DNA from: a virus
Length of the DNA stretch: 26,791 nt
IMG/VR virus record: IMGVR_UViG_3300032241_001824
Span: 1-26,791 of that record
Reading direction: 5' to 3' (one strand)
Under the pieces are notes generated by a model, which saw only the letters and a list, made by a program, of their open reading frames with translations, had not been told where the DNA came from and ran no database searches. A program made the translations under genes and the position numbers. Positions within the stretch are counted from its first letter, which is position 1; each line of letters begins with the position of its first letter. Shown here one piece after another: positions 3,267-14,573 of this stretch.

Positions 3267-3449
3267 ATGACAACGGTTCAAGTATCGCCCGAATTAGTTC
3301 AGACCGGCGACCAAGTGAAGATCAAGGATTCCGTTTTCACGGTGAAATTCTTTGAATCTGATTTGAATGGTTCATATGATTTTTATGTGCAAAACGAAAG
3401 CGGGATCCAGCACGAGATCGTCACCGAATCGATTACTCTTATCGTGTGA
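3267..3449 (+). CDS. Small hypothetical protein, 60 residues
   Basis: ATG 3267 was chosen because AAGGGAG (3255-3261) lies at proper spacing; the frame is open upstream to 3192 but without a ribosome site. The protein is beta-rich (TTVQVSPELVQTGDQVKIKD, VFTVKFFES, YDFYVQNES, HEIVTESITLIV) and could be a small barrel. No family is recognised. It is translationally coupled to the RusA-like gene by GTGA. Confidence 0.65.
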   Translation: MTTVQVSPELVQTGDQVKIKDSVFTVKFFESDLNGSYDFYVQNESGIQHEIVTESITLIV

Positions 3450-3817
3450 TTTCTTTTTCGTGTGATGGAGTTCCAGTGCCGCAAGGATCGATGAAGGTAA
3501 TAAACGGACACATTCTCCATTCTCAAGGTTCCGCGCTCGCGGTGTGGCGATCGACGGTAGCCCTTGCGGCTCGATTCGCGGGAGCAAAGCCGGCGGATGG
3601 GGCGATCGGGATCGAGATCGTTTTTCGAGTCAAGCGACCCAAGACGGTTAAACGGGATTTCCCGACGGTGGCTCCGGATCTCGACAAATATATTCGCGGG
3701 GTATTGGATGCGCTTACGGGGATCGGATATCAAGATGACTCGCAAGTGACCGAAATTAAAGCGGAAAAAATCTACTCGGATGAACCGGGCGCGGATGTAA
3801 AGATTTTTCAAAAATAA
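3446..3817 (+). CDS. RusA-like Holliday-junction resolvase
   Basis: 123 residues, GTG start overlapping the upstream stop (GTGA). The RusA fold is recognisable: N-terminal VPVPQGSMKV strand-turn, a central VFRVKRPKTVKRDFPTVAP strand, the acidic PDLDKYIRGVLDAL motif (D78, D80, K81, D88) and the QDDSQVTEIKAEKIY motif (D97, D98). In E. coli RusA the corresponding acidic residues and a lysine form the active site for symmetric cleavage of four-way DNA junctions. In this phage it would resolve recombination or replication intermediates before packaging. The 98-base region after it is a leader with promoter-like boxes. Confidence 0.9.
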   Translation: MISFSCDGVPVPQGSMKVINGHILHSQGSALAVWRSTVALAARFAGAKPADGAIGIEIVFRVKRPKTVKRDFPTVAPDLDKYIRGVLDALTGIGYQDDSQVTEIKAEKIYSDEPGADVKIFQK

Positions 3818-3840
3818 TTTAAAAATTACCGTTTTTGAAC

Positions 3841-3869
3841 TTGTGTCCGTAATCTATTGATGGTACTTT
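3841..3869 (+). promoter_or_regulatory. Putative promoter TTGTGT-17-TACTTT
   Basis: TTGTGT (3841-3846) and TACTTT (3864-3869) are 17 bases apart, preceded by an A/T-rich stretch (3812-3835) after the RusA-like stop. The motif CGTAATCTAT (3848-3857) lies in the spacer. The same layout recurs at 4654-4682. Confidence 0.4.
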
Positions 3870-3879
3870 TCTGCTATCA

Positions 3880-3896
3880 GGAGCCAAGAGGACTCC
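3880..3896 (+). promoter_or_regulatory. Leader hairpin upstream of the 3916 gene
   Basis: GGAGCC, loop AAGA, then GGACTCC pair as a 6-bp stem with one bulged A (3892). It lies between the putative -10 box and the GGAAGGA ribosome site (3902-3908), at the same place as the hairpin at 4692-4707. Confidence 0.45.
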
Positions 3897-3915
3897 CCAA
3901 CGGAAGGACAGTAAA

Positions 3916-4167
3916 GTGAGCAATACAACAGTTGAATTCAATGCCGGCGATTTTGCCCCGATGCACGAAAAAGCCGCTTCAAGTTTAAATTATTGTTTTC
4001 TATGTGGTCGCAAATTAGGCAAAAACGCTTACCATTTTGAAGTGAATACCGCTTGGCAGATTATTGTTCCTGCAAGTGATGAAGAAAACTCACAAGGTTG
4101 TTTTCCAATCGGTAGCGAATGTGCCAAAAAGTTTGCTGCAAATCTACTCGTAAAAGTTGGTGCATAA
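3916..4167 (+). CDS. Small four-cysteine protein (zinc-ribbon-like)
   Basis: 83 residues, GTG start with a clear ribosome site GGAAGGA (3902-3908). Cysteines C27-x2-C30 (YCFLCGRKL) and C62...C69 (QGCFPIGSECAKKF) suggest a zinc ribbon or treble clef. The lysine-rich C-terminal helix suggests contact with nucleic acid or protein. The C-terminus ends VKVGA, and the DNA there doubles as the ribosome site of the next gene. Related small proteins are common in actinophages by my recollection, without known function. Confidence 0.7.
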   Translation: MSNTTVEFNAGDFAPMHEKAASSLNYCFLCGRKLGKNAYHFEVNTAWQIIVPASDEENSQGCFPIGSECAKKFAANLLVKVGA

Positions 4168-4169
4168 AA

Positions 4170-4436
4170 ATGCTTCCTACAAAAAAGAATTTCGACCTTA
4201 AAATGGTTCAATTCGTCACCAAGACATATAGTGGCAAATCCGGTTGCGCTTGCGGATGCGGCGGGAATTATGCGGATGGCGATTCAACTACCGGCAAAAA
4301 GCGAATTACAAAAATGTTAAATTCCGATTGCGGATCGATCGAGTTTTTCGATCTTGGCGATGGGGAAGGATGTTTTGACTTAGAAAATTTTGAAGGAACA
4401 AGAGTGCTCCGCGTTTATGTAAAGGAAGGTGCATAA
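4170..4436 (+). CDS. Small cysteine-rich protein
   Basis: 88 residues. ATG 4170 follows the previous stop by two bases and uses the shared GTTGGTGCATAAA junction as ribosome site. A CACGCGG cluster (C26, C28, C30) plus C54 and C68 suggests metal binding. The second half is acidic and beta-rich (SIEFFDLGDGEG, RVLRVYVKEGA). An internal ATG at 4203 is a weaker alternative start. No family is recognised. Confidence 0.65.
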   Translation: MLPTKKNFDLKMVQFVTKTYSGKSGCACGCGGNYADGDSTTGKKRITKMLNSDCGSIEFFDLGDGEGCFDLENFEGTRVLRVYVKEGA

Positions 4437-4437
4437 A

Positions 4438-4656
4438 GTGGCTAAATTAACCGATTACCAACTTAAAGAAAAGTTCATCGATTTCATCGACGACACAACC
4501 CCCGCGGTGATCTTATGGAAAACGGAATATCCCGCTTCTCAAATTCTACGGGAAGTTGATCCGGTGCAATTTGACCAAATGTTTTGGGATTGGATCGATT
4601 CGATGGAGTGCGAATCGTGCGAAAATTCTTTAGAAGAATGTGCGTGTGAGGACTAG
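4438..4656 (+). CDS. Small acidic protein with C-terminal CxxC...CxC
   Basis: 72 residues. I place the start at GTG 4438, one base after the upstream stop and behind GGAAGGTG, in line with the two sister junctions; GTG 4429 is in frame but lies inside the ribosome-site motif. The body is helical and acidic (YQLKEKFIDFIDD; FDQMFWDWIDSM). The end carries C58, C61, C68 and C70, a probable metal knuckle. The family is not known. Confidence 0.65.
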   Translation: MAKLTDYQLKEKFIDFIDDTTPAVILWKTEYPASQILREVDPVQFDQMFWDWIDSMECESCENSLEECACED

Positions 4657-4682
4657 ACAAAGCGTAATCTATCCCCTACTTT
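4654..4682 (+). promoter_or_regulatory. Putative promoter TAGACA-17-TACTTT
   Basis: TAGACA (4654-4659) differs from TTGACA by one base and is 17 bases from TACTTT (4677-4682), which fits the TANNNT pattern of actinobacterial -10 boxes. CGTAATCTAT (4663-4672) lies in the spacer. This is the better of the two matching leaders; the first box overlaps the stop codon of the upstream gene. Confidence 0.45.
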
Positions 4683-4691
4683 TCTACTAAC

Positions 4692-4707
4692 GGAGCGAAT
4701 CCGCTCC
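4692..4707 (+). promoter_or_regulatory. Leader hairpin upstream of the 4730 gene
   Basis: GGAGCG, loop AATC, CGCTCC form a perfect 6-bp stem. It is followed nine bases later by the GGAAGG ribosome site (4717-4722). It is too short and has no U-run to be a terminator; a 5' stabiliser or protein-binding site is possible. Confidence 0.5.
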
Positions 4708-4729
4708 ACCTTTGACGGAAGGCGAAAAA

Positions 4730-5140
4730 ATGAAACTTATTTATCAATTCAACGGAGAGCGCGTTCGAACTGTCTGCTCTGATTGCGGAAGCAATGTTCA
4801 AAAGTCAATAACAAAAGAAAATAAAGAATATTTATCAAATGGATCTCGATCATCGATTCATGGCGGAACTTTTGCTACCGCTCATCGTTGCGATTTATGG
4901 GTGGCTCAGGGTTTAATCGAAGCAGGTTACCAATCCCGCGAAATTGCTCGCGGCGAAGTTATTTCCGGCGCAACGGTAAAAGTAATCAAGGGGCGCAAAG
5001 TGCCTGTCGGATCAATCGCAAAAATCTTTTGGATCGGCGATTCCGATTACGGATTTAGCGTTGGTTTAATTCTTGAAAACGGAGAAAAAACTTTTACCGC
5101 GCTAAAAAATATTGAAACAATCGTGAAAGTTGGTGCATAA
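4730..5140 (+). CDS. Small protein with zinc-ribbon start and SH3/KOW-like end
   Basis: 136 residues. ATG 4730 has GGAAGG (4717-4722) at good spacing; TTG 4712 is rejected as it lies before that site. Residues 14-54 contain C16-x2-C19 and H52/C54 (TVCSDCGSNVQKS ... AHRCDLW), likely a zinc site. Residues about 76-130 (GEVISGATVKVIKGRKVPVG ... YGFSVGLILENGEKTFTAL) look like a KOW/SH3-like barrel of the kind seen in translation and transcription factors. The C-terminus VKVGA again overlaps the repeated junction DNA. The exact role is unknown. Confidence 0.65.
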   Translation: MKLIYQFNGERVRTVCSDCGSNVQKSITKENKEYLSNGSRSSIHGGTFATAHRCDLWVAQGLIEAGYQSREIARGEVISGATVKVIKGRKVPVGSIAKIFWIGDSDYGFSVGLILENGEKTFTALKNIETIVKVGA

Positions 5141-5142
5141 AA

Positions 5143-5370
5143 GTGCGCGCATCAAGCAATTCGGCGTTAGTAAAAAAATTCGTAGCAATGATTAATGAAG
5201 CGGATTCAATCGAGCGCAAGCAAGCGATCTACGATTCCGCTTACGCATATTGTGTTATTGCAAATCGAGATTTTGTTAAATTCCAAGGATCTTTTTTTAT
5301 GACATTTATCGAAAGCGAAACAGGATTTAAACCAACCGTGAGTTATGGATATCAGGAGGCAAGCAAATGA
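5143..5370 (+). CDS. Hypothetical protein, 75 residues
   Basis: GTG start two bases after the upstream TAA, behind the shared GTTGGTGCATAAAA junction. The chain is helical (ALVKKFVAMINEADSIERKQ; AIYDSAYAYCVIANRDFVKF) with no known motif. AGGAGGC near its 3' end (5354-5360) serves the next gene, whose ATG overlaps the stop. Confidence 0.65.
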   Translation: MRASSNSALVKKFVAMINEADSIERKQAIYDSAYAYCVIANRDFVKFQGSFFMTFIESETGFKPTVSYGYQEASK

Positions 5371-5651
5371 AAATCACCGGCGCAGATTTCAATCATTTAA
5401 CCGTGAACTCAACTAATTGGAAAAATTACCAAGAGGATTGGAAATTACAAGAGGGAAGATTCGAGGATATCGATTTCGCAAGTACGGAACCGGTGGAGTG
5501 GAATCATTCTCGCGCATATTGGGTTTCGGATTATCCAAGTGTTTTATTTGTCCGCGCGTTCCTTGAAGGTCAAAACGAAACTTACCGAGTTTATTACGAC
5601 ACCGCCGACGACAATTATATGGTGACGACAAATTATGGCGGTGATCTCTGA
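5367..5651 (+). CDS. Hypothetical protein, 94 residues
   Basis: ATGA overlap and a strong ribosome site (AGGAGGC, 5354-5360). The protein is rich in aromatic residues and acidic, with beta-strand character in the second half (SVLFVRAFLEG; ETYRVYYDTADDNYMVTTNY). No family is recognised. The stop overlaps the start of a tiny membrane protein (TGATG). Confidence 0.65.
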   Translation: MKITGADFNHLTVNSTNWKNYQEDWKLQEGRFEDIDFASTEPVEWNHSRAYWVSDYPSVLFVRAFLEGQNETYRVYYDTADDNYMVTTNYGGDL

Positions 5652-5749
5652 TGCTCGAATTTTTATTATTAGGATCTTTGGGAGTAATTGCGTTGCTAAT
5701 TTTATTTATTGCGATCGAACCCGATGACAAATGGGATGGTGGTTGGTGA
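5651..5749 (+). CDS. 32-residue single-span membrane protein
   Basis: The frame starts at ATG 5651 in a TGATG overlap and stops at TGA 5747-5749. The sequence is one hydrophobic segment (FLLLGSLGVIALLILFIAI, residues 4-22) with a short acidic tail (EPDDKWDGGW). Overlap with genes on both sides and the clean membrane segment support it despite its size. The function is unknown; it may modify the host membrane or assist lysis. Confidence 0.5.
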   Translation: MLEFLLLGSLGVIALLILFIAIEPDDKWDGGW

Positions 5750-5865
5750 TGTGCGTATGGTGCGGGACACGCGGCGGATCTCTTAACCCGTTAATCGTTT
5801 ACTCGCAAGATCTTTGCGAATGTCGTTGGTGTTTTATGATTGCAAAGCGAGAGGAAATGAAATGA
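5749..5865 (+). CDS. 38-residue zinc-ribbon miniprotein
   Basis: ATG 5749 overlaps the previous stop by one base; stop TGA 5863-5865 overlaps the next ATG. Cysteines C2, C5 (MCVWCG) and C23, C25, C28 (LCECRWC) make a likely zinc ribbon, followed by a basic tail (MIAKREEMK). The function is unknown. Its place in an unbroken chain of overlapping starts and stops is the main support. Confidence 0.5.
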   Translation: MCVWCGTRGGSLNPLIVYSQDLCECRWCFMIAKREEMK

Positions 5866-6020
5866 TTGTGACAAATATATTTGAAGATGAAAATAAAACG
5901 CAATACCTTGTAACAGTTTTTGATAATGGATTCGCGCGGTTAGCGATCCGAGAAGAAAATGCCCGCACATGGAGTGCGCCGATCGAATTGATTCGAACCG
6001 AAAGGACAGAAACAGAATGA
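5862..6020 (+). CDS. Hypothetical protein, 52 residues
   Basis: ATG 5862 in an ATGA overlap; the frame is open upstream to 5814 but that part lies in the zinc-ribbon gene. The protein is beta-rich (MIVTNIFEDENKTQYLVTVF; FARLAIREENARTW) and charged, with no known motif. Its stop overlaps the next start. Confidence 0.55.
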   Translation: MIVTNIFEDENKTQYLVTVFDNGFARLAIREENARTWSAPIELIRTERTETE

Positions 6021-6175
6021 AGATGGATCGAAAGTATGTAAATCGTCGTCGATGGGTCGCGTTTATTGTTGTTGGAATTCCATTACTTATTCTTGCGTTT
6101 TATGTTATCAACCACATTTGGTGGACAACTAACGGGTATTGCTGGGGAACTCCGGAAAAGTGTTGGGGGATGTAA
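6017..6175 (+). CDS. Small single-span membrane protein
   Basis: 52 residues, ATGA overlap. A basic head (MKMDRKYVNRRR) precedes a hydrophobic span (WVAFIVVGIPLLILAFYVI, residues 13-31). The positive-inside rule would put the N-terminus in the cytoplasm. The external tail is rich in tryptophan and holds two cysteines (NGYCWGTPEKCWGM) that could form a disulfide. A holin-like or envelope-modifying role is possible but not shown. Confidence 0.6.
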   Translation: MKMDRKYVNRRRWVAFIVVGIPLLILAFYVINHIWWTTNGYCWGTPEKCWGM

Positions 6176-6352
6176 ATGGAATGCCAGCACGATTTTGACG
6201 AAATGATCTGCTCCGAATGCGATGCCCACCGTGGTTGTATTGAATGCGGATATGACGAACACGGGGAACCAAGCGAGCATGATGATTGGGCATTTTTTGG
6301 ATTCTCTGAGAATTACGATATGGAATGGGGTTATGCAGATGAAAAATCTTAA
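6176..6352 (+). CDS. 58-residue cysteine-rich acidic protein
   Basis: ATG 6176 follows directly after the previous stop, with GGGGGA (6166-6171) as ribosome site; it ends at TAA 6350-6352. Pairs CSEC (C12, C15) and CIEC (C21, C24), together with C3, H5 and H18, suggest zinc binding. The C-terminal half is acidic and aromatic (EHDDWAFFGFSENYDMEWGY). No family is recognised. Confidence 0.55.
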   Translation: MECQHDFDEMICSECDAHRGCIECGYDEHGEPSEHDDWAFFGFSENYDMEWGYADEKS

Positions 6353-6497
6353 AGGCGAAGAACCAAAATATAAATTCCTCGGGAAAAAATTGCCGGAAGA
6401 TTCCAAAGGCATGAATTACGAAGATTGGAAAATTTTCATTCAGGAATCAAAACAATTTTTAAAAGAGTTGCGAGAAAAAGCGGAGGAATCCAAATGA
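6339..6497 (+). CDS. Hypothetical protein, 52 residues
   Basis: I take ATG 6339 as start because ATGGGG (6325-6330) is at correct spacing; ATG 6333 is too close. The gene overlaps the previous one by 14 bases. The sequence is basic then helical (YKFLGKKLPEDSKG; EDWKIFIQESKQFLKELREK). The function is unknown. GGAGGAA at its end (6482-6488) serves what follows. Confidence 0.5.
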   Translation: MKNLKGEEPKYKFLGKKLPEDSKGMNYEDWKIFIQESKQFLKELREKAEESK

Positions 6498-6547
6498 TGG
6501 AAGACCATGCAAAATTACATGAATCGGAAAAAGATGCCCACATATGA
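6494..6547 (+). CDS. 17-residue open frame, possible leader peptide
   Basis: ATGATG at 6494 sits behind the strong site GGAGGAA (6482-6488) in an ATGA overlap, but the frame (MMEDHAKLHESEKDAHI) stops at 6547, 14 bases into the FmdB-like gene. It may only carry ribosomes to the poorly served FmdB start. Confidence 0.3.
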   Translation: MMEDHAKLHESEKDAHI

Positions 6548-6698
6548 ATATAAATGTTCCGGATGTTCAATTCGGTTCGAAGTCTTTGCATCAATCAAGG
6601 AAAAACCGGCGACTCCCAAGTGTTGCGACGAAGTGGAAAGAATTTTCTCGCCGTTCGGAATCTCTTTCAAGGGTTCCGGATGGGGCAAAGATCGATAA
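6534..6698 (+). CDS. FmdB-family zinc ribbon protein
   Basis: 54 residues beginning MPTYEYKCSGC, the hallmark start of FmdB-type putative regulators. C8 and C11 form the first knuckle; the second is C30-C31 (PKCC) where the family usually has C-x2-C. The end FSPFGISFKGSGWGKDR is also typical of the family. I choose ATG 6534 because family members begin at this methionine, although the ribosome site in front of it is weak. FmdB proteins are widespread small zinc proteins with no firm biochemical role; phages carry them often. Confidence 0.8.
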   Translation: MPTYEYKCSGCSIRFEVFASIKEKPATPKCCDEVERIFSPFGISFKGSGWGKDR

Positions 6699-6731
6699 GT
6701 TTGTCGCTTATGCGGCAATAAAATGCTCTGC

Positions 6732-6756
6732 CCCTGCCCGTCAGCGGGGGACAGGG
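6732..6756 (+). terminator. GC-rich hairpin after the FmdB-like gene
   Basis: CCCTG/CAGGG (5 bp) and CCCG/CGGG (4 bp, loop TCAG) stack with a GGA bulge on the 3' side. It is followed by TATAAAATTAAAC, not by a U-run, so it may be a weak terminator or a structured boundary. It lies in the 102-base gap 6699-6800. Confidence 0.35.
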
Positions 6757-6762
6757 TATAAA
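6757..6762 (+). promoter_or_regulatory. Possible -10 box TATAAA
   Basis: TATAAAAT follows the hairpin directly and is about 40 bases before the 6801 gene. No -35 match lies 17 bases upstream, since that position falls inside the hairpin. The ribosome site for the next gene is GAAAGGA (6785-6791). Confidence 0.25.
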
Positions 6763-6800
6763 ATTAAACAATCCGCTATCTCCCGAAAGGACTAAAGAAA

Positions 6801-6899
6801 ATGGATCAAAATGTAAAGCGTTGCCGCGGATGCGGTGTTCAGTTATGGGTGGCGACCGTTTGCACCTACTGTTCGAAATGGAGCAAGGATTTACCATAA
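6801..6899 (+). CDS. 32-residue zinc-ribbon miniprotein
   Basis: ATG 6801 with GAAAGGA at 6785-6791; stop TAA 6897-6899. It has two clean knuckles, C8-x2-C11 (CRGC) and C21-x2-C24 (CTYC), spaced as in a minimal zinc ribbon. The next gene begins inside its 3' end. It may bind nucleic acid or another protein; nothing more can be said. Confidence 0.55.
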   Translation: MDQNVKRCRGCGVQLWVATVCTYCSKWSKDLP

Positions 6900-7288
6900 A
6901 AGTTATCGGCAAGATTCTTTTAATCGCCATTTTGGTTGGATCTTGTCAGACGGCGGGAGCGCAAGCGGCGTATGCGCCCCGAGCGTTTTTCTCTTTTATT
7001 ACTCATCCCAAAATGTATGCAAGGATGCAAGTCCCAAGCGATAAGCAATACGGATGCCTAGTAAAATTATGGAATCGCGAATCACATTGGAATCCAAAAG
7101 CGGTGAATCATTCATCCGGCGCATTTGGGATTGCTCAATTTCTCCCGACAACTTGGGGGAATTACAAATTTGAATATAAACCCAAAAATCCAATTAAGCA
7201 GATCGATTATGGGTTGCATTACATTTCGGTTCGCTATGGATCGGCGTGTAAGGCGTGGCGACATGAGAAAGAATACGGCTGGTATTGA
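6878..7288 (+). CDS. Exported lytic transglycosylase (SLT/lysozyme-like)
   Basis: 136 residues from ATG 6878. Residues 8-30 are a signal sequence: K, a hydrophobic core (IGKILLIAILV) and then GSCQTAGAQA, which offers both a lipobox-like VGSC (C23) and an AQA cleavage site. Residues 58-130 form a transglycosylase domain: LWNRESHWNPKAVN with catalytic E68, SSGAFGIAQFLPTTW, and QIDYGLHYISVRYGS. It would cut peptidoglycan between MurNAc and GlcNAc outside the membrane. The start lacks a good ribosome site, so translation may be coupled to the upstream miniprotein. It could be a lysis enzyme or an envelope-remodelling enzyme; its early location is unusual. Confidence 0.8.
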   Translation: MEQGFTIKVIGKILLIAILVGSCQTAGAQAAYAPRAFFSFITHPKMYARMQVPSDKQYGCLVKLWNRESHWNPKAVNHSSGAFGIAQFLPTTWGNYKFEYKPKNPIKQIDYGLHYISVRYGSACKAWRHEKEYGWY

Positions 7289-8409: not shown

Positions 8410-9021
8410 ATGGAAGCGAAAAAATTACTAACCGATGACCTGAAAGAATATCCGGGCAACGCGAGGCGTGGCAATGTAACGGTACTCATGGAATCTTTGA
8501 AGGTAAACGGTCAATATCGCCCGATCGTGGTTCAAAAATCGACAAATTATGTATTAGCGGGAAATCATTTATTAAGAGCCGCAAAATCGTTGGGATGGGA
8601 AGAAATCGATGCAGTTGTCGTCGATGTTGATGATGAGCAAGCGTTAAAAATTGTTTTGGTGGATAACCGGTCGAATGACCTTGGCGAATATAACGATGAC
8701 CTTTTGAGATCGTTGCTTAAAGAGGTTGAGGATTTCACGGGTACGGGTTACACGGCGGCGGATATCGAAGAATTAGAAAAACTCGGCGGGGTTGAGCAAG
8801 AGGAGAGACCGGATATAGAGTTTTCTCTTGCGTTAAGAGAAGAAAATAATTACATCGTGCTGGTATTTGATAATGCCCTCGATTGGCAATCAGCGATTAC
8901 TACTTTTGGATTGACCACGGTTAAGGCGTGGGATTCACGACCCGGATTTTCCCGCGCGGGTATCGGTCGAGTTATTGCGGGGACACCTATTCTTGATCGG
9001 TTGAACAATGTTAATAGTTAG
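8410..9021 (+). CDS. ParB-like nuclease/sulfiredoxin-fold domain protein
   Basis: 203 residues; GGGGG (8401-8405) is the ribosome site. Residues 9-100 carry the ParB/Srx domain: DDLKEYPGNARRGNVTVLME, QYRPIVVQKSTNYVLAGNHL with the GNH motif at 51-53, and the VLVDNRSNDLGEYNDDLL helix typical of phage ParB proteins. A second conserved-looking part (about 130-203: NNYIVLVFDNALDWQSAITT ... RAGIGRVIAG) is seen in phage ParB proteins near DNA-modifying enzymes. Members have been proposed as DNases, NTP-binding switches or DNA-modification partners. It overlaps the glycosyltransferase gene by 14 bases, so the two are probably used together. Confidence 0.85.
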   Translation: MEAKKLLTDDLKEYPGNARRGNVTVLMESLKVNGQYRPIVVQKSTNYVLAGNHLLRAAKSLGWEEIDAVVVDVDDEQALKIVLVDNRSNDLGEYNDDLLRSLLKEVEDFTGTGYTAADIEELEKLGGVEQEERPDIEFSLALREENNYIVLVFDNALDWQSAITTFGLTTVKAWDSRPGFSRAGIGRVIAGTPILDRLNNVNS

Positions 9022-9742
9022 CCCATCGTATAAAAGATCGAAGGATGTAAAGATCCGGAACTGGTATCCGGATGCGATGCTTGCGGTTCACGAATTCGAA
9101 GCCGAGGAATATAGAGAAAATCAAGGCGGACAGATTATGGTTTTGCCTGATTCAACGCGTGGAAATATGGCGAAAGTTCGACAGTTCATTCTTGACCAAG
9201 CGGTCGATGGTGAATGGGTGGCGATGATCGATGATGATGTCGAGGAATTCGGTTATTTCGGGAAAGCGGAAAACAAGCAAAATTGGATGCCCTACGATGC
9301 GGATCGATTCGTCGAGTTTTTGGAAGTCGGTTGCAATATGGCGGAAGAACTCGGGACAAATTTGTGGGGCGTGAATGTATCTTTTGACCCTCGATTTTTC
9401 CGTGAGTTTACGCCGTTCGCGTTTAGTTCGCCGGTATTAGGGACATTCTGCGTTCAAAAGAAAACGGATGGAATTAGTTACGATGCGCGATTGGGGTTGA
9501 AAGAGGATTACGATATTTTTCTCCAGCATCTTCACCGATCGCATAAAGTTTTGAGATTCAATCGGTATTACTACAAAGCCGGGCATCTTGATGTTGCGGG
9601 CGGATGTGCGGTTTACCGAAATATGGCGGAAGAAAAAAAGCAAGCGGAAATCTTCACAAAAAAGTGGGGATCAAAGGTCATTAAGTGGACTCCGGAAAGA
9701 TCAACTAACCCTCGACTTTATGCGCCAATACCGGGTGTTTAA
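9008..9742 (+). CDS. Glycosyltransferase resembling the TET-associated (TAGT) family
   Basis: 244 residues. The fold is GT-A-like: N-terminal MLIVSPSYKRSKDV strand, GNMAKVRQFILDQAVDGEWV, then the metal/sugar-nucleotide motif D75-D76-D77 (VAMIDDDVEEFG). A later LKEDYDIF motif gives E166-D167, the likely catalytic region, before RFNRYYYKAGHLDVAGGC. Length and motif order resemble the phage TAGT family, described by Iyer and colleagues as partners of TET/JBP dioxygenases that sugar-modify oxidised bases. No dioxygenase lies in this window. The substrate could be a modified DNA base; a virion protein or host sugar is possible. It overlaps the ParB-like gene and, by TAATG, the small terminase gene. 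Confidence 0.75.
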   Translation: MLIVSPSYKRSKDVKIRNWYPDAMLAVHEFEAEEYRENQGGQIMVLPDSTRGNMAKVRQFILDQAVDGEWVAMIDDDVEEFGYFGKAENKQNWMPYDADRFVEFLEVGCNMAEELGTNLWGVNVSFDPRFFREFTPFAFSSPVLGTFCVQKKTDGISYDARLGLKEDYDIFLQHLHRSHKVLRFNRYYYKAGHLDVAGGCAVYRNMAEEKKQAEIFTKKWGSKVIKWTPERSTNPRLYAPIPGV

Positions 9743-10401
9743 TGAGCGATTTTGAAAATAACGCGGGGGAGATTGAAAATTACCCCGACAAGGCGGAATG
9801 GGAGTTATTAAAAAAGGAACGAAAAGTCGTCGATCTGCGCCAAATGGGGATTACTTATGAGGTGATCGCGAAAGAGGTGGGATACGCGAGTGCTTCCGGG
9901 GCTTATCACGCTTACGAAAGAGCGTTGGCAAGATATCCGCGTGAAACCTTTGACAAAAAGCGCGATCTCCAAGAGCAACGAATCGAGCGACTTTTGGCGG
10001 GCGTGTGGACTAAGGCTCTAAGGGGTGACACGGCGGCGATAATGACTACAATTAAATTATTCGAAAGGCAAGCGAAATTGCTCGGGTTGGATATGCCTCA
10101 GCGATTCGAAAATACGGTCGAAATATTCGAGGGCGGGAGTGAAGTCGATGAACAAGTTAGACGATTCGCCTACCTTATTGCCCAAGCAGAAAATCAACAA
10201 GACTCAATGGGCGACGGGGAGCCGACTCTTTTGGGAATCGAAGGCGAGATCGAATCAGATTCCACCGAAAACGGGATGGCAAACTTGGTTGATCCTCTCG
10301 GGTCGAGGTTGGGGCAAGACGAGGTGCGGGGCGGAATGGATAGCGTGGGAAGCGATCCGGAATCCGAAAACTCGATGGGCGATAGTAGCCAAGACTTTTA
10401 G
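9742..10401 (+). CDS. terS: Terminase small subunit (unusually long overlap with terL)
   Basis: 219 residues from ATG 9742 (TAATG overlap). Residues about 20-75 hold a helix-turn-helix of the kind that binds the packaging site (WELLKKERKVVDLRQMGITY, YEVIAKEVGYASASGAYHAY). A helical oligomerisation segment follows (LQEQRIERLLAGVWTKALRG, TIKLFERQAKLLGLD). The last 84 codons lie inside the terL gene in another frame and give an acidic, low-complexity tail (DSMGDGEPTLLGIEGEIES...). The role is to recognise phage DNA and hand it to the large subunit. Identity rests on HTH, position and size, not on a signature motif. Confidence 0.75.
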   Translation: MSDFENNAGEIENYPDKAEWELLKKERKVVDLRQMGITYEVIAKEVGYASASGAYHAYERALARYPRETFDKKRDLQEQRIERLLAGVWTKALRGDTAAIMTTIKLFERQAKLLGLDMPQRFENTVEIFEGGSEVDEQVRRFAYLIAQAENQQDSMGDGEPTLLGIEGEIESDSTENGMANLVDPLGSRLGQDEVRGGMDSVGSDPESENSMGDSSQDF

Positions 10402-11515
10402 CGATGCTCGCGATACTTGCGTGGAAGGTGATTCCGGTGTTTTAGGCGTGTTGAATCGCTATCAAGCGTTGCAGACTTGGAACCGATCGATCGGTGAAAT
10501 CGTTTTGACGAATGGATCGATGATTAAATTATTTTCGGCGGAAGAACCGGATCGATTGAGAGGACCCCAGCACCACGGGGCTTGGGCTGACGAATTAGCC
10601 GCGTGGGCGAAACCTGATGCGTGGGATCAAATGCAATTCGGATTACGATTGGGAAAAAATCCGAGAACTGTCGTCACGACAACGCCACGACCAATCCCGT
10701 TGATCCGGAATCTAGTTAATCGATCGGATGGAACGGTATACACGACGCTTGGATCGACTTTTGACAATGCGGCGAACCTCGCGCCATCGGCGTTGATTGA
10801 GTTGCAGTCGCGGTATGCGGGAACTCGAATGGGTCGCCAAGAATTATTCGGTGAGTTATTGAATGAATCGGATTCGGCGTTATGGACTCGATCTTTGATT
10901 GAGCAAGCAAGGATCAATATCGAAGATGCCCCGCCTTACTATCGTTGCGTAGTGGCGATCGATCCGGCGGTGACAAGTGGCGAATCAAGCGATGAAACGG
11001 GAATCGTGGTGGCGGGCGCAACGCCTGACGGTCATTATTACATCGTTGAGGATGCTTCGATGCGCGGGACTCCGGAAGCGTGGGCGCGAAAAGCGATCGA
11101 GATGTATCGCAAGCATAAGTGCGATCGGGTAATCGGTGAAGCGAACAACGGTGGAGATATGATCGAAAGCCTACTAAGGCAAGTTGATGCTTCGATTCCT
11201 TATCGGAAAGTTCACGCTTCAAGAGGAAAAAGAGTTCGAGCGGAGCCGGTGTCTGCGTTGTCGGAGCAGTTGCGGCTGCATATGGTGGGATCTAATTTTT
11301 CGGAGTTGGAAGATCAACTCGTGACTTGGGAGCCCGATTCCGATAAATCGCCCGATCGTATGGATGCGATGGTATGGGCGGTCAGCGATCTAATGAGTAA
11401 CTCCGGGGCGTTGCGGTCGTTAGCAGCGATGGCGGATTTCTGCCCGTCGTGTCGATTGCCGTTAGTAAAAGGAACTAGGATTTGCCCACGATGCCAAGCA
11501 GAGGTGAAACAATGA
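10148..11515 (+). CDS. terL: Terminase large subunit with C-terminal zinc ribbon
   Basis: 455 residues from ATG 10148, chosen for GGGAG about 8 bases upstream; GTG 10139 is an alternative. The ATPase shows Walker A SGRGWGKT (51-58) within the TWLILSGRGWGKTRCGAEW stretch, and Walker B WADE (D148, E149). The nuclease domain shows VVAIDPAVTSGESSDETGIV, DRVIGEANNGGDMIESLLR and DRMDAMVWAV with its acidic residues. It powers DNA translocation through the portal and cuts the concatemer. The last 25 residues form an extra zinc ribbon: C432-x2-C435 and C446-x2-C449. The start lies inside terS and the stop overlaps the GP88-like gene. Confidence 0.95.
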   Translation: MNKLDDSPTLLPKQKINKTQWATGSRLFWESKARSNQIPPKTGWQTWLILSGRGWGKTRCGAEWIAWEAIRNPKTRWAIVAKTFSDARDTCVEGDSGVLGVLNRYQALQTWNRSIGEIVLTNGSMIKLFSAEEPDRLRGPQHHGAWADELAAWAKPDAWDQMQFGLRLGKNPRTVVTTTPRPIPLIRNLVNRSDGTVYTTLGSTFDNAANLAPSALIELQSRYAGTRMGRQELFGELLNESDSALWTRSLIEQARINIEDAPPYYRCVVAIDPAVTSGESSDETGIVVAGATPDGHYYIVEDASMRGTPEAWARKAIEMYRKHKCDRVIGEANNGGDMIESLLRQVDASIPYRKVHASRGKRVRAEPVSALSEQLRLHMVGSNFSELEDQLVTWEPDSDKSPDRMDAMVWAVSDLMSNSGALRSLAAMADFCPSCRLPLVKGTRICPRCQAEVKQ

Positions 11516-12251: not shown

Positions 12252-14573
12252 ATGGGTTTATTTGACCGATTAGCAAAAGCGATTGTAGAAGCGCAGATCG
12301 AAAAGGCTCCAAGTAATTTACCAGCGGGCGCGGTCGTGATGACCGAGCAACAAATGCGGGATGCGAATACGCAAAATACCTATGGGCAACAAACCCCATT
12401 AACGCGAAACCCGTTGATGGCGGGCGTTCCATTTGGACCCGGAATGCCGATTCAGCCGGGAGCGATTAACCCACTTCGGGATGACGGTCGCGCGGATCCT
12501 CGACGATATGAATATCAAGTCGCGCAAAACCTTAATATCGGAACCGAACAAAAATTAGTTCCATTCACAACGCTTCGCGGGGCGGCGGAGCAAATCGATA
12601 TTGTGCGCCGTTGCGTTGAAGTATTGAAGGCAAAAATTTCCGGCTTGGATTGGGATATCGTGATCGCGGAAGATGCGAGCGAAAAGATTATTGCAGAAAT
12701 TGGCGGAGATCACACCCGAGCAATGTCGATTGCGCGTTCGAAGTTTTCCGATGAGATTTATCGAATCCGTACCTTTTGGGAAAATCCGGATCGTGCGAAT
12801 GGATTGACATTCATCGATTGGATGATGATGTCACTCGAGGAAATACTTGTGCTAGATGCGTGGGCGATATGGCCTCAAAAGACCGTAGGCGGCGATCTGT
12901 ATGGGTTCCAAGTGCTAGACGGATCAACTATCAAGCCGATGCTTGATGATCGCGGTATGCGACCTATGCCGCCTCAAGTGGCGTATCAGCAGATTCTGTA
13001 TGGGTTCCCGCGATCTGAATTCACGGCGAATTCCGACGATGTGCAAGCGGATGGAGAGTTTACATCCGACGATCTTTCTTACTTCATCCGGAACCGTCGA
13101 GCGAATTCGGTTTACGGATCTTCACCGGTCGAAAGATGCTTACCTCTTGCAGACCTTTATTTGCGCCGTCAGCAATGGCTCCGAGCCGAATATACCGATG
13201 GCGTAACTCCCGAGATGATGCTTACTTCTGACGCAGATTTCGGTAACGATCCGCTCGTGATGAAGCAATACGAAAATATTATCAACGACAACCTTGCAGG
13301 TCAGACAGAGCAACGCAAACGCGCTTTGATCTTGCCTTCCGGATTGAAACCTCAATTTTATGAAGGCTACGGCGAAAAATTTAAATCCGGGCTAGATGAA
13401 TATCTTGTCACCTCAATCACCGGTCACTTCGGCGTACTACCAACAGAAATTGGATTCAGCGCAAAAGGCGGATTAGGTTCATCCGGTCACCAAGAGGGCG
13501 AAGCGGAAGCGGCGCAATCAATCGGTGTCGCGCCATTAGCGCAATGGATCTCGAAGATGATCACGAATATCTCTTATACATATTTGAAGATGCCACGCGA
13601 ATTGGAATTCCGGTTCATGGTGGCGGAAATCCGCGATAATGAGGAAGAAGCCAAAAAGGCAGACCTCGAATTACGCGGAGCAACAAAAACGATCAATGAG
13701 CGACGATCGGAATTGGGATTACCTCTCTTGGATACTCCGGCGGCAGATCAGCCAATTTTGGTTGCCGGTAGCGGAGTCTTTTTGTTTACTCCGGAAGGAA
13801 TCGTGAACGCGGCGGCTCCAACGCCGGGCGTGGAGAATGTGACGGATGATGTGGATCCGATGGCTCCAACCGAACCTGCCCCGACTGATGATTCAGGATC
13901 GTCACCGAGCGGTGACAATTCAGGGGAGCAACCGAACGGTGACAATTCTGCGCCACAAAATAACGAAACGATCGAACCCGATTTCGAAAAAGCGGGAGTT
14001 CCGTCGGTAGCGGAAGCGGAAGCCGCGCTCTCTCGATTATTTGTGCTTCCTAACCCCGCGGGGGATGCGGTGTCAGTAGATGACGATCCGCAGGATTTTG
14101 TGGAAAGCCCGTGGGAAGTAACGGCGCAAATTGTTGTCGATCCGGATGTATGGCAAAAAGCAGAATTGCAACTCGTTAATGTAAAAGATTTGACCGCGAC
14201 CGACACAATTCTTAGCCGCGAAAAAGTCGCCGATCGTATTCAGGCGATGGGGCAATCGTTGAAGCCTTATCGAAATTTCCCGCTTGTTTATGATGATGGA
14301 GAAAAGCAAATCATCATCGACGGGCATCATCGATTGTTTGCCATGTGGCTTTTAGGAATGGATCAGGTTCCCGTGTGGATGGGAACTTCGGATATGGCGA
14401 AAGAGGCAAGCGCGGAAGTCAAAGCGTTCCTCAAATGGGCGGGTAAAGGAAAACGCGCTCGACAATTTGAGTTTAAAGCCCTCGACCCAATCGTGGGGGA
14501 TGCGTTGAATCGGTGCTATTTCGATGGAGATATGGAAACCGTGAAATCTCTTGCTAAGGCTTATTTGCAATGA
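12252..14573 (+). CDS. Portal protein with C-terminal ParB-like domain
   Basis: 773 residues, ribosome site AAGGGGA (12241-12247); much longer than the usual 450-550 of siphophage portals. Residues about 95-500 are portal-like: LRGAAEQIDIVRRCVEVLKA, GLDWDIVI, the FIDWMMMSLEEILVLDAWAI wing, YGFQVLDGSTIKPMLDDRG, VYGSSPVERCL and SAKGGLGSSGHQEGEAEAAQ. A Ser/Asp/Asn/Pro-rich linker (about 540-585) repeats GDNS. Residues about 640-700 form a ParB/sulfiredoxin-like domain: QLVNVKDLTATDT, SLKPYRNFPLVYDDGEKQI and IIDGHHRLFAMWLLG with D690-G-H-H-R694. The portal ring is the gate for DNA entry. The extra domain would face the head interior or the neck; which one cannot be seen here. Confidence 0.9.
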   Translation: MGLFDRLAKAIVEAQIEKAPSNLPAGAVVMTEQQMRDANTQNTYGQQTPLTRNPLMAGVPFGPGMPIQPGAINPLRDDGRADPRRYEYQVAQNLNIGTEQKLVPFTTLRGAAEQIDIVRRCVEVLKAKISGLDWDIVIAEDASEKIIAEIGGDHTRAMSIARSKFSDEIYRIRTFWENPDRANGLTFIDWMMMSLEEILVLDAWAIWPQKTVGGDLYGFQVLDGSTIKPMLDDRGMRPMPPQVAYQQILYGFPRSEFTANSDDVQADGEFTSDDLSYFIRNRRANSVYGSSPVERCLPLADLYLRRQQWLRAEYTDGVTPEMMLTSDADFGNDPLVMKQYENIINDNLAGQTEQRKRALILPSGLKPQFYEGYGEKFKSGLDEYLVTSITGHFGVLPTEIGFSAKGGLGSSGHQEGEAEAAQSIGVAPLAQWISKMITNISYTYLKMPRELEFRFMVAEIRDNEEEAKKADLELRGATKTINERRSELGLPLLDTPAADQPILVAGSGVFLFTPEGIVNAAAPTPGVENVTDDVDPMAPTEPAPTDDSGSSPSGDNSGEQPNGDNSAPQNNETIEPDFEKAGVPSVAEAEAALSRLFVLPNPAGDAVSVDDDPQDFVESPWEVTAQIVVDPDVWQKAELQLVNVKDLTATDTILSREKVADRIQAMGQSLKPYRNFPLVYDDGEKQIIIDGHHRLFAMWLLGMDQVPVWMGTSDMAKEASAEVKAFLKWAGKGKRARQFEFKALDPIVGDALNRCYFDGDMETVKSLAKAYLQ

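Follow-up and report, generated by a model that had tools for sequence, protein, structure and literature searches.

The closest described counterparts of the sequence reported here are the Start-Associated Sequences (SAS) of Cluster K mycobacteriophages. These are 13-bp repeats that occupy the position of the ribosome site 3–7 nt before gene starts, occur in a single orientation, are confined to non-structural genes, and are conserved beyond the needs of pairing (PMC3203893). Cluster EF Microbacterium phages carry an SAS analogue of unrelated sequence (PMC7302621). Conserved boundary sequences have also been proposed for phages at the junctions of mosaic modules (discussed in PMC3029335). Finally, a Shine-Dalgarno (SD) sequence inside the end of an upstream gene can support reinitiation at the next gene; removal of the intragenic SD reduces reinitiation in most E. 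coli gene pairs tested (PMC6728339).

The stretch of DNA analysed here (the window) is an entire linear virus record of 26.8 kb. Its products include RusA, SSB, ParB, HNH, a primosomal protein, a Cas4-like exonuclease, a WhiB-like regulator and an SLT transglycosylase, together with terminase, portal, MuF-type head and tape-measure proteins. WhiB regulators are typical for actinobacteria and their phages, and hence the host is probably actinobacterial. The best named-phage matches of the Cas4-like protein are in Rhodococcus, Arthrobacter, Gordonia and Mycobacterium phages, all at <60% identity. DNA searches of named phage records returned no close relative of the window, and protein searches against named phages returned only distant matches (<60% identity). 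Three further products are of note. The portal protein (12252-14573, PHROG 2662) has an additional ParB-like C-terminal stretch at residues about 630-710, the terminase large subunit (10139-11515) possibly ends in a small zinc-ribbon (weak DZR match, residues 431-457), and the product of 9008-9739, which adjoins the packaging genes, matches PHROG 842, annotated as a beta-glucosyl-HMC alpha-glucosyltransferase.

The features relevant to this study lie between the RusA and SLT genes, and small genes are named by their first position:

3446-3817, RusA gene
3818-6811, plus strand, hypervariable accessory interval between the RusA and SLT genes, where the boxes are concentrated
3849-3915, plus strand, leader 1, with GTAATCTAT, hairpin GGAG/CTCC and ribosome site, ahead of the 3916 gene
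3916-4167, plus strand, small gene, 83 aa, cysteine-containing
4153-4167, plus strand, junction box 1, AAAGTTGGTGCATAA, KVGA-stop of the 3916 gene and ribosome site for the 4170 gene
4170-4436, plus strand, small gene, 88 aa, PHROG 5930 (unknown function)
4422-4436, plus strand, junction box 2, AAGGAAGGTGCATAA, KEGA-stop of the 4170 gene and ribosome site for the 4438 gene
4438-4656, plus strand, small gene, 72 aa counted from GTG, weak PHROG 37123 match (unknown function)
4664-4729, plus strand, leader 2, with GTAATCTAT, hairpin GGAGCG/CGCTCC and ribosome site, ahead of the 4730 gene
4730-5140, plus strand, small gene, 136 aa, PHROG 37790 (unknown function)
5126-5140, plus strand, junction box 3, AAAGTTGGTGCATAA, KVGA-stop of the 4730 gene and ribosome site for the 5143 gene
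5143-5370, plus strand, small gene, 75 aa, no family matched
5367-5651, plus strand, small gene, family 4 of the interval
about 6821-7288, SLT transglycosylase gene

A repeat search of the window returned one family of this kind, with three 26-nt copies at 4148, 4417 and 5121, the first and third being 92% identical. All three contain a box read in frame as K-[V/E]-G-A-stop, and the next start (ATG, GTG and GTG, respectively) lies 1-2 nt past the stop. The exact sequence GGTGCATAAA occurs in the window at these three junctions and nowhere else. The original prediction had proposed three near-identical gene junctions, in which the same bases form the end of one gene, its stop and the ribosome site of the next. 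The repeat search and the in-frame reading confirm this, and the observation had, if anything, been understated. The box sequence given at the time, 'AAAG(T/A)TGGTGCATAAA', is corrected to AAAGTTGG in both KVGA copies, with copy 2 reading AAGGAAGG. Among the window proteins upstream of the boxes, meaningful BLASTP similarity is confined to two proteins and, in these, to the final six residues. Hence, the joined proteins are dissimilar, as had been proposed, and paralogy, which would make the shared end a matter of simple descent, is ruled out.

We collected the loci in which relatives of the exonuclease, of RusA or of the 3916 gene occur; with the window, these make up 166 sequences and 2.2 Mb. 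Genes were called with a home-made caller, the contigs are fragments, and the loci overlap in origin and are phylogenetically non-independent. The consensus of the junction copies in these loci is AAGGTAGGTGCATAA, 15 nt that encode K-V-G-A-stop. On the coding strand we located GGTGCATAA at 37 distinct sites, as compared to two on the opposite strand, and 35 distinct copies are at real stop/start junctions. Boxes join many unrelated genes, with 26 families among the 34 upstream proteins and 23 families downstream. Codon usage predicts 0.66 genes ending in GGT-GCA-TAA and 0.007 with the full K[V/A]GA box; we observed 27 and 20, respectively. Thus, the box recurs far more often than expected by chance. 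Exact AAGGTNGGTGCATAANNATG was found in 37 viral stretches, most of which are true junctions, and many of these contigs carry relatives of window genes. A scan of 257 Gb of genomes for AAAGGTAGGTGCATAA gave 88 matches, in unrelated bacteria, roughly in line with the ~120 expected at random by a simple estimate; the box is thus no widespread element of hosts.

Conservation among the 35 junction copies begins abruptly at AAG, the lysine codon, ends sharply after TAA, and is about zero further upstream; since this profile was selected on GGTGCATAA, only its AAGGTA part is independent evidence. Among the 36 K[V/A/E]GA tails collected without such selection, the codons are nearly fixed (AAG in 31, GGT in 33, GCA in 32 and TAA in 34), indicating that the DNA is conserved and not the protein alone. 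A called start lies 2-5 nt from the stop in 33 of these 36 cases. Could the C-terminus itself nonetheless be under selection, for example as a tag for proteolysis, localisation or partner binding carried by unrelated small phage proteins? The recurrence of the tail across 26 unrelated protein families is what such a tag would produce, and only one four-residue tail in the lineage is commoner than KVGA. However, the codons are nearly fixed, homologous proteins occur that lack the tail, and KVGA tails with varied codons before long intergenic gaps are nearly absent here. Moreover, GA ends 8.2% of tight junctions, as compared to 0.4-1.9% of others, and the tail is rare away from tight junctions with a downstream gene. 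We consider selection on the protein tail very improbable. The box instead accounts for a C-terminus common to unrelated small proteins, which annotation could mistake for homology. The commonest four-residue tail in the lineage is VWLD, at 57 gene ends, which probably reflects simple descent of one gene.

The RusA-SLT interval spans 1.8-4.7 kb in related loci and contains small genes in ever-changing order. Relatives of the 3916 gene in other phages have variable C-termini and are followed by different genes; its product has a weak, sub-threshold match to zf-FLZ (E 0.0062). Family 4 is present in many related phages, with differing upstream genes and with the box present or absent. A short-pattern search of viral contigs found no relatives of the 4170 and 4730 genes, but tblastn found a few in the fetched related loci. 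Defining tight TAA junctions as those with the next start 2-9 nt away, the box is present at 16/118 inside the interval but only 1/155 outside (Fisher p=8.5e-6). In these incomplete contigs there are 0-3 copies per interval and, rarely, copies elsewhere. Many tight junctions within the interval have no box. The box can serve as a marker for locating accessory-gene intervals of uncultured phages.

What is the basis for such strong conservation? The box can pair with the 3ʹ end of actinobacterial 16S rRNA, for which the generally accepted anti-SD sequence was used. In the duplex with the consensus, ten base pairs form and one base is bulged out (-11.5 kcal/mol). Mean duplex energies are -11.1 kcal/mol for boxes, -7.5 kcal/mol for other tight TAA junctions, and -4.1 kcal/mol for internal coding sequence. 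Hence, the box can also be understood in ordinary functional terms, as a strong SD site that overlaps a stop codon. In 17/33 cases, AAGGNAGGTG is followed directly by CATAA, whereas the next start follows the stop at a variable distance of 2-5 nt; the unit is therefore the SD plus the stop.

Good pairing would also be expected if each junction had made its own SD in the end of the upstream gene, the genetic code then yielding KVGA-stop with no common ancestry between copies. An identical 16-mer is found at junctions in unrelated bacteria (27/80 genome hits) and in unrelated phages, and related junctions drift toward GGAGGCATAA, GCGGTGGCATAA and similar sequences. Homologous genes often end in another G-rich sequence, such as GGAGGCATAA, as they might if these ends had evolved repeatedly and independently. 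However, convergence on a ribosome site should act equally across the genome, so the concentration of boxes in the interval speaks against convergence alone. In addition, the third-last codon is GTA, GTT or GCA at boxes but mostly GAG, TGG, GAA or GGA at other tight junctions. A perfect SD, AAAGGAGGTGCATAA, would be in frame and pair more strongly, yet was found in no case in the lineage; the conserved T is thus not accounted for by SD strength alone. We regard purely independent origins as a possible but unlikely explanation. Together, the unused AAAGGAGGTGCATAA, the bulge, which is conserved as a pyrimidine, and the bias toward the interval lead us to favour shared ancestry, with re-use of box copies.

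The original prediction had also suggested that the junction is a modular splice point spread by recombination. Its proposed check, of gene content at the junctions in related loci, showed that relatives can share one flank of the box and differ on the other. In the locus pair L271/L268, sequences downstream of the box are 100% identical over 60 nt and those upstream beyond the box are 33% identical; L231/L233 likewise match downstream and not upstream. The opposite arrangement is seen in L133/L131 (90-100% upstream, 30-40% downstream) and L134/L233 (76-83% upstream, random downstream). Furthermore, one gene family occurs both with and without the box. The part of the suggestion that stands is that gene content changes exactly at the box, as in L271/L268 and L133/L131; a special role of the box in recombination is not supported. 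The proportion of breaks at tight junctions inside the interval is 0.799 with the box and 0.799 without it (permutation p=0.52). An earlier comparison with all tight small-gene junctions had given an excess of breakpoints at boxes (p=0.026), which disappeared once location was matched; the initial excess is an effect of location. Every gene border in the interval is a swap point, and the box is found at such points for that reason.

These data bear on the reading of the box as a recombination hot spot, whose short homology phage recombinases would use to splice accessory genes. In addition to the locus pairs that change gene content at the box, such a role would fit the 92% identity of window copies 1 and 3 across 26 nt, and box flanks that are slightly more alike within a genome than between genomes (3.6 vs 2.8 of 9, 19 pairs). 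Nonetheless, location-matched junctions break equally with or without it, 15 nt, some of them mismatched, make a short substrate for homologous exchange, and swaps also occur at junctions that lack the box, e.g. in L230 and L229 as compared to L234, upstream of family 4. With the breakpoint excess gone inside the interval, we rejected the hot spot as a candidate and consider it improbable.

The interval contains a second recurrent element. Both transcription blocks in the window begin with GTAATCTAT, followed by a spacer of about 20-30 nt, a hairpin and a ribosome site. The same layout precedes different small genes in related loci (L141:2659, L141:3844, L142:8086, L134:7207, L133:2050, L229:4465 and others), and GTAATCTAT leaders occur in the accessory interval and further upstream. 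A strong hairpin is predicted in 86% of 42 leaders, as compared to 6% of shuffles, and the stems covary, changing on both sides (GGGC/GCCC, GGTTCC/GGAACC, GGTCGG/CCGACC, GATCCG/CGGATC and GGAGCG/CGCTCC). RNAalifold found no structure in a MAFFT alignment of the leaders because that alignment ignores the register of the hairpin, which a register-aware test detected. A simple sigma-70 scan at its thresholds found no promoter at these promoter-like leaders. The PeSL of T4-type phages is reported to be a promoter/stem-loop cassette, a promoter-terminator composite (PMC4503421). The window leaders resemble the PeSL in combining a promoter-like motif with a stem-loop where shuffled small genes begin. 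They differ from it in sequence and phage group, and their hairpins lack a T run. This comparison concerns the leaders, not the KVGA box. One might imagine that the accessory genes of this lineage of uncultured phages are built on interchangeable parts, with a promoter/hairpin leader for each transcript and a fixed 15-nt stop-restart box in which AAGG would serve the terminating and AGGTG the restarting ribosome. We put this forward tentatively, as a scheme that is rather unlikely in full; if it were true, any incoming gene could be expressed at once, at a set ratio.

We propose that the box is probably a standardised, SAS-like termination-reinitiation signal of the accessory interval, carried between unrelated genes and re-used. 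In the 15 nt of AAGGTAGGTGCATAA, the upstream gene would have its last four codons and its stop, and the downstream gene an extended SD helix with one bulged base. With about 5 nt between it and the last sense codon, AAGG could hold the terminating ribosome through the 16S tail, and AGGTG, 4-7 nt before the next start, would then serve the ribosome as it restarts a few nucleotides downstream. Such coupling would cause adjacent small genes to be produced at linked rates. Since small genes in the interval are exchanged at their boundaries, exchange could carry the box from one gene to another, and the KVGA tail would be a by-product. Points against the proposal are the missing perfect SD, the many boxless tight junctions of the interval and the other G-rich ends of homologous genes. 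The data show directly the sequence of the box, its recurrence, location and pairing potential, and the swapping of unrelated genes around it; the coupling and the spread by descent, as opposed to independent origin, are what we infer from these patterns.

How does this signal compare with those already described? Like the boundary sequences proposed for phage modules, the box is a short shared sequence at gene borders whose neighbours differ between genomes; unlike them, it has breakpoints no more often than other tight junctions of the interval. As in termination-reinitiation with an intragenic SD (PMC6728339, PMC12548453), the SD lies inside the upstream gene, at its 3ʹ end, and stop and start are a few nucleotides apart at most. 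In those systems, however, the SD is individual to each gene pair, whereas here one sequence serves many unrelated pairs. The similarity to SAS is closest. The box is a short sequence conserved beyond an ordinary ribosome site, and the next start begins 2-5 nt on from the stop's first base; it occurs in one orientation (37 forward, 2 reverse), precedes genes of different families (23 downstream), pairs partially with the anti-SD, and shows the non-structural restriction of SAS in its preference for the interval (16/118 tight TAA junctions vs 1/155 elsewhere). SAS are present in 10-19 copies per genome, as compared to about 0-3 per interval in the incomplete contigs analysed here. A stop codon is inside SAS only sometimes; the box includes the upstream stop, fixing the KVGA tail. 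Judged by its sequence, the box is of the SAS kind and belongs to neither published set, since AAGGTAGGTGCATAA differs from the consensus of both Cluster K (GGGATAGGAGCCC) and Cluster EF (GGGAAAGGACCCC). It is thus a further SAS-like sequence, the third and unrelated to the other two, from phages whose hosts are probably actinobacteria; here it is fused to a stop codon, and this fusion makes SAS function addressable with a clean two-gene reporter.
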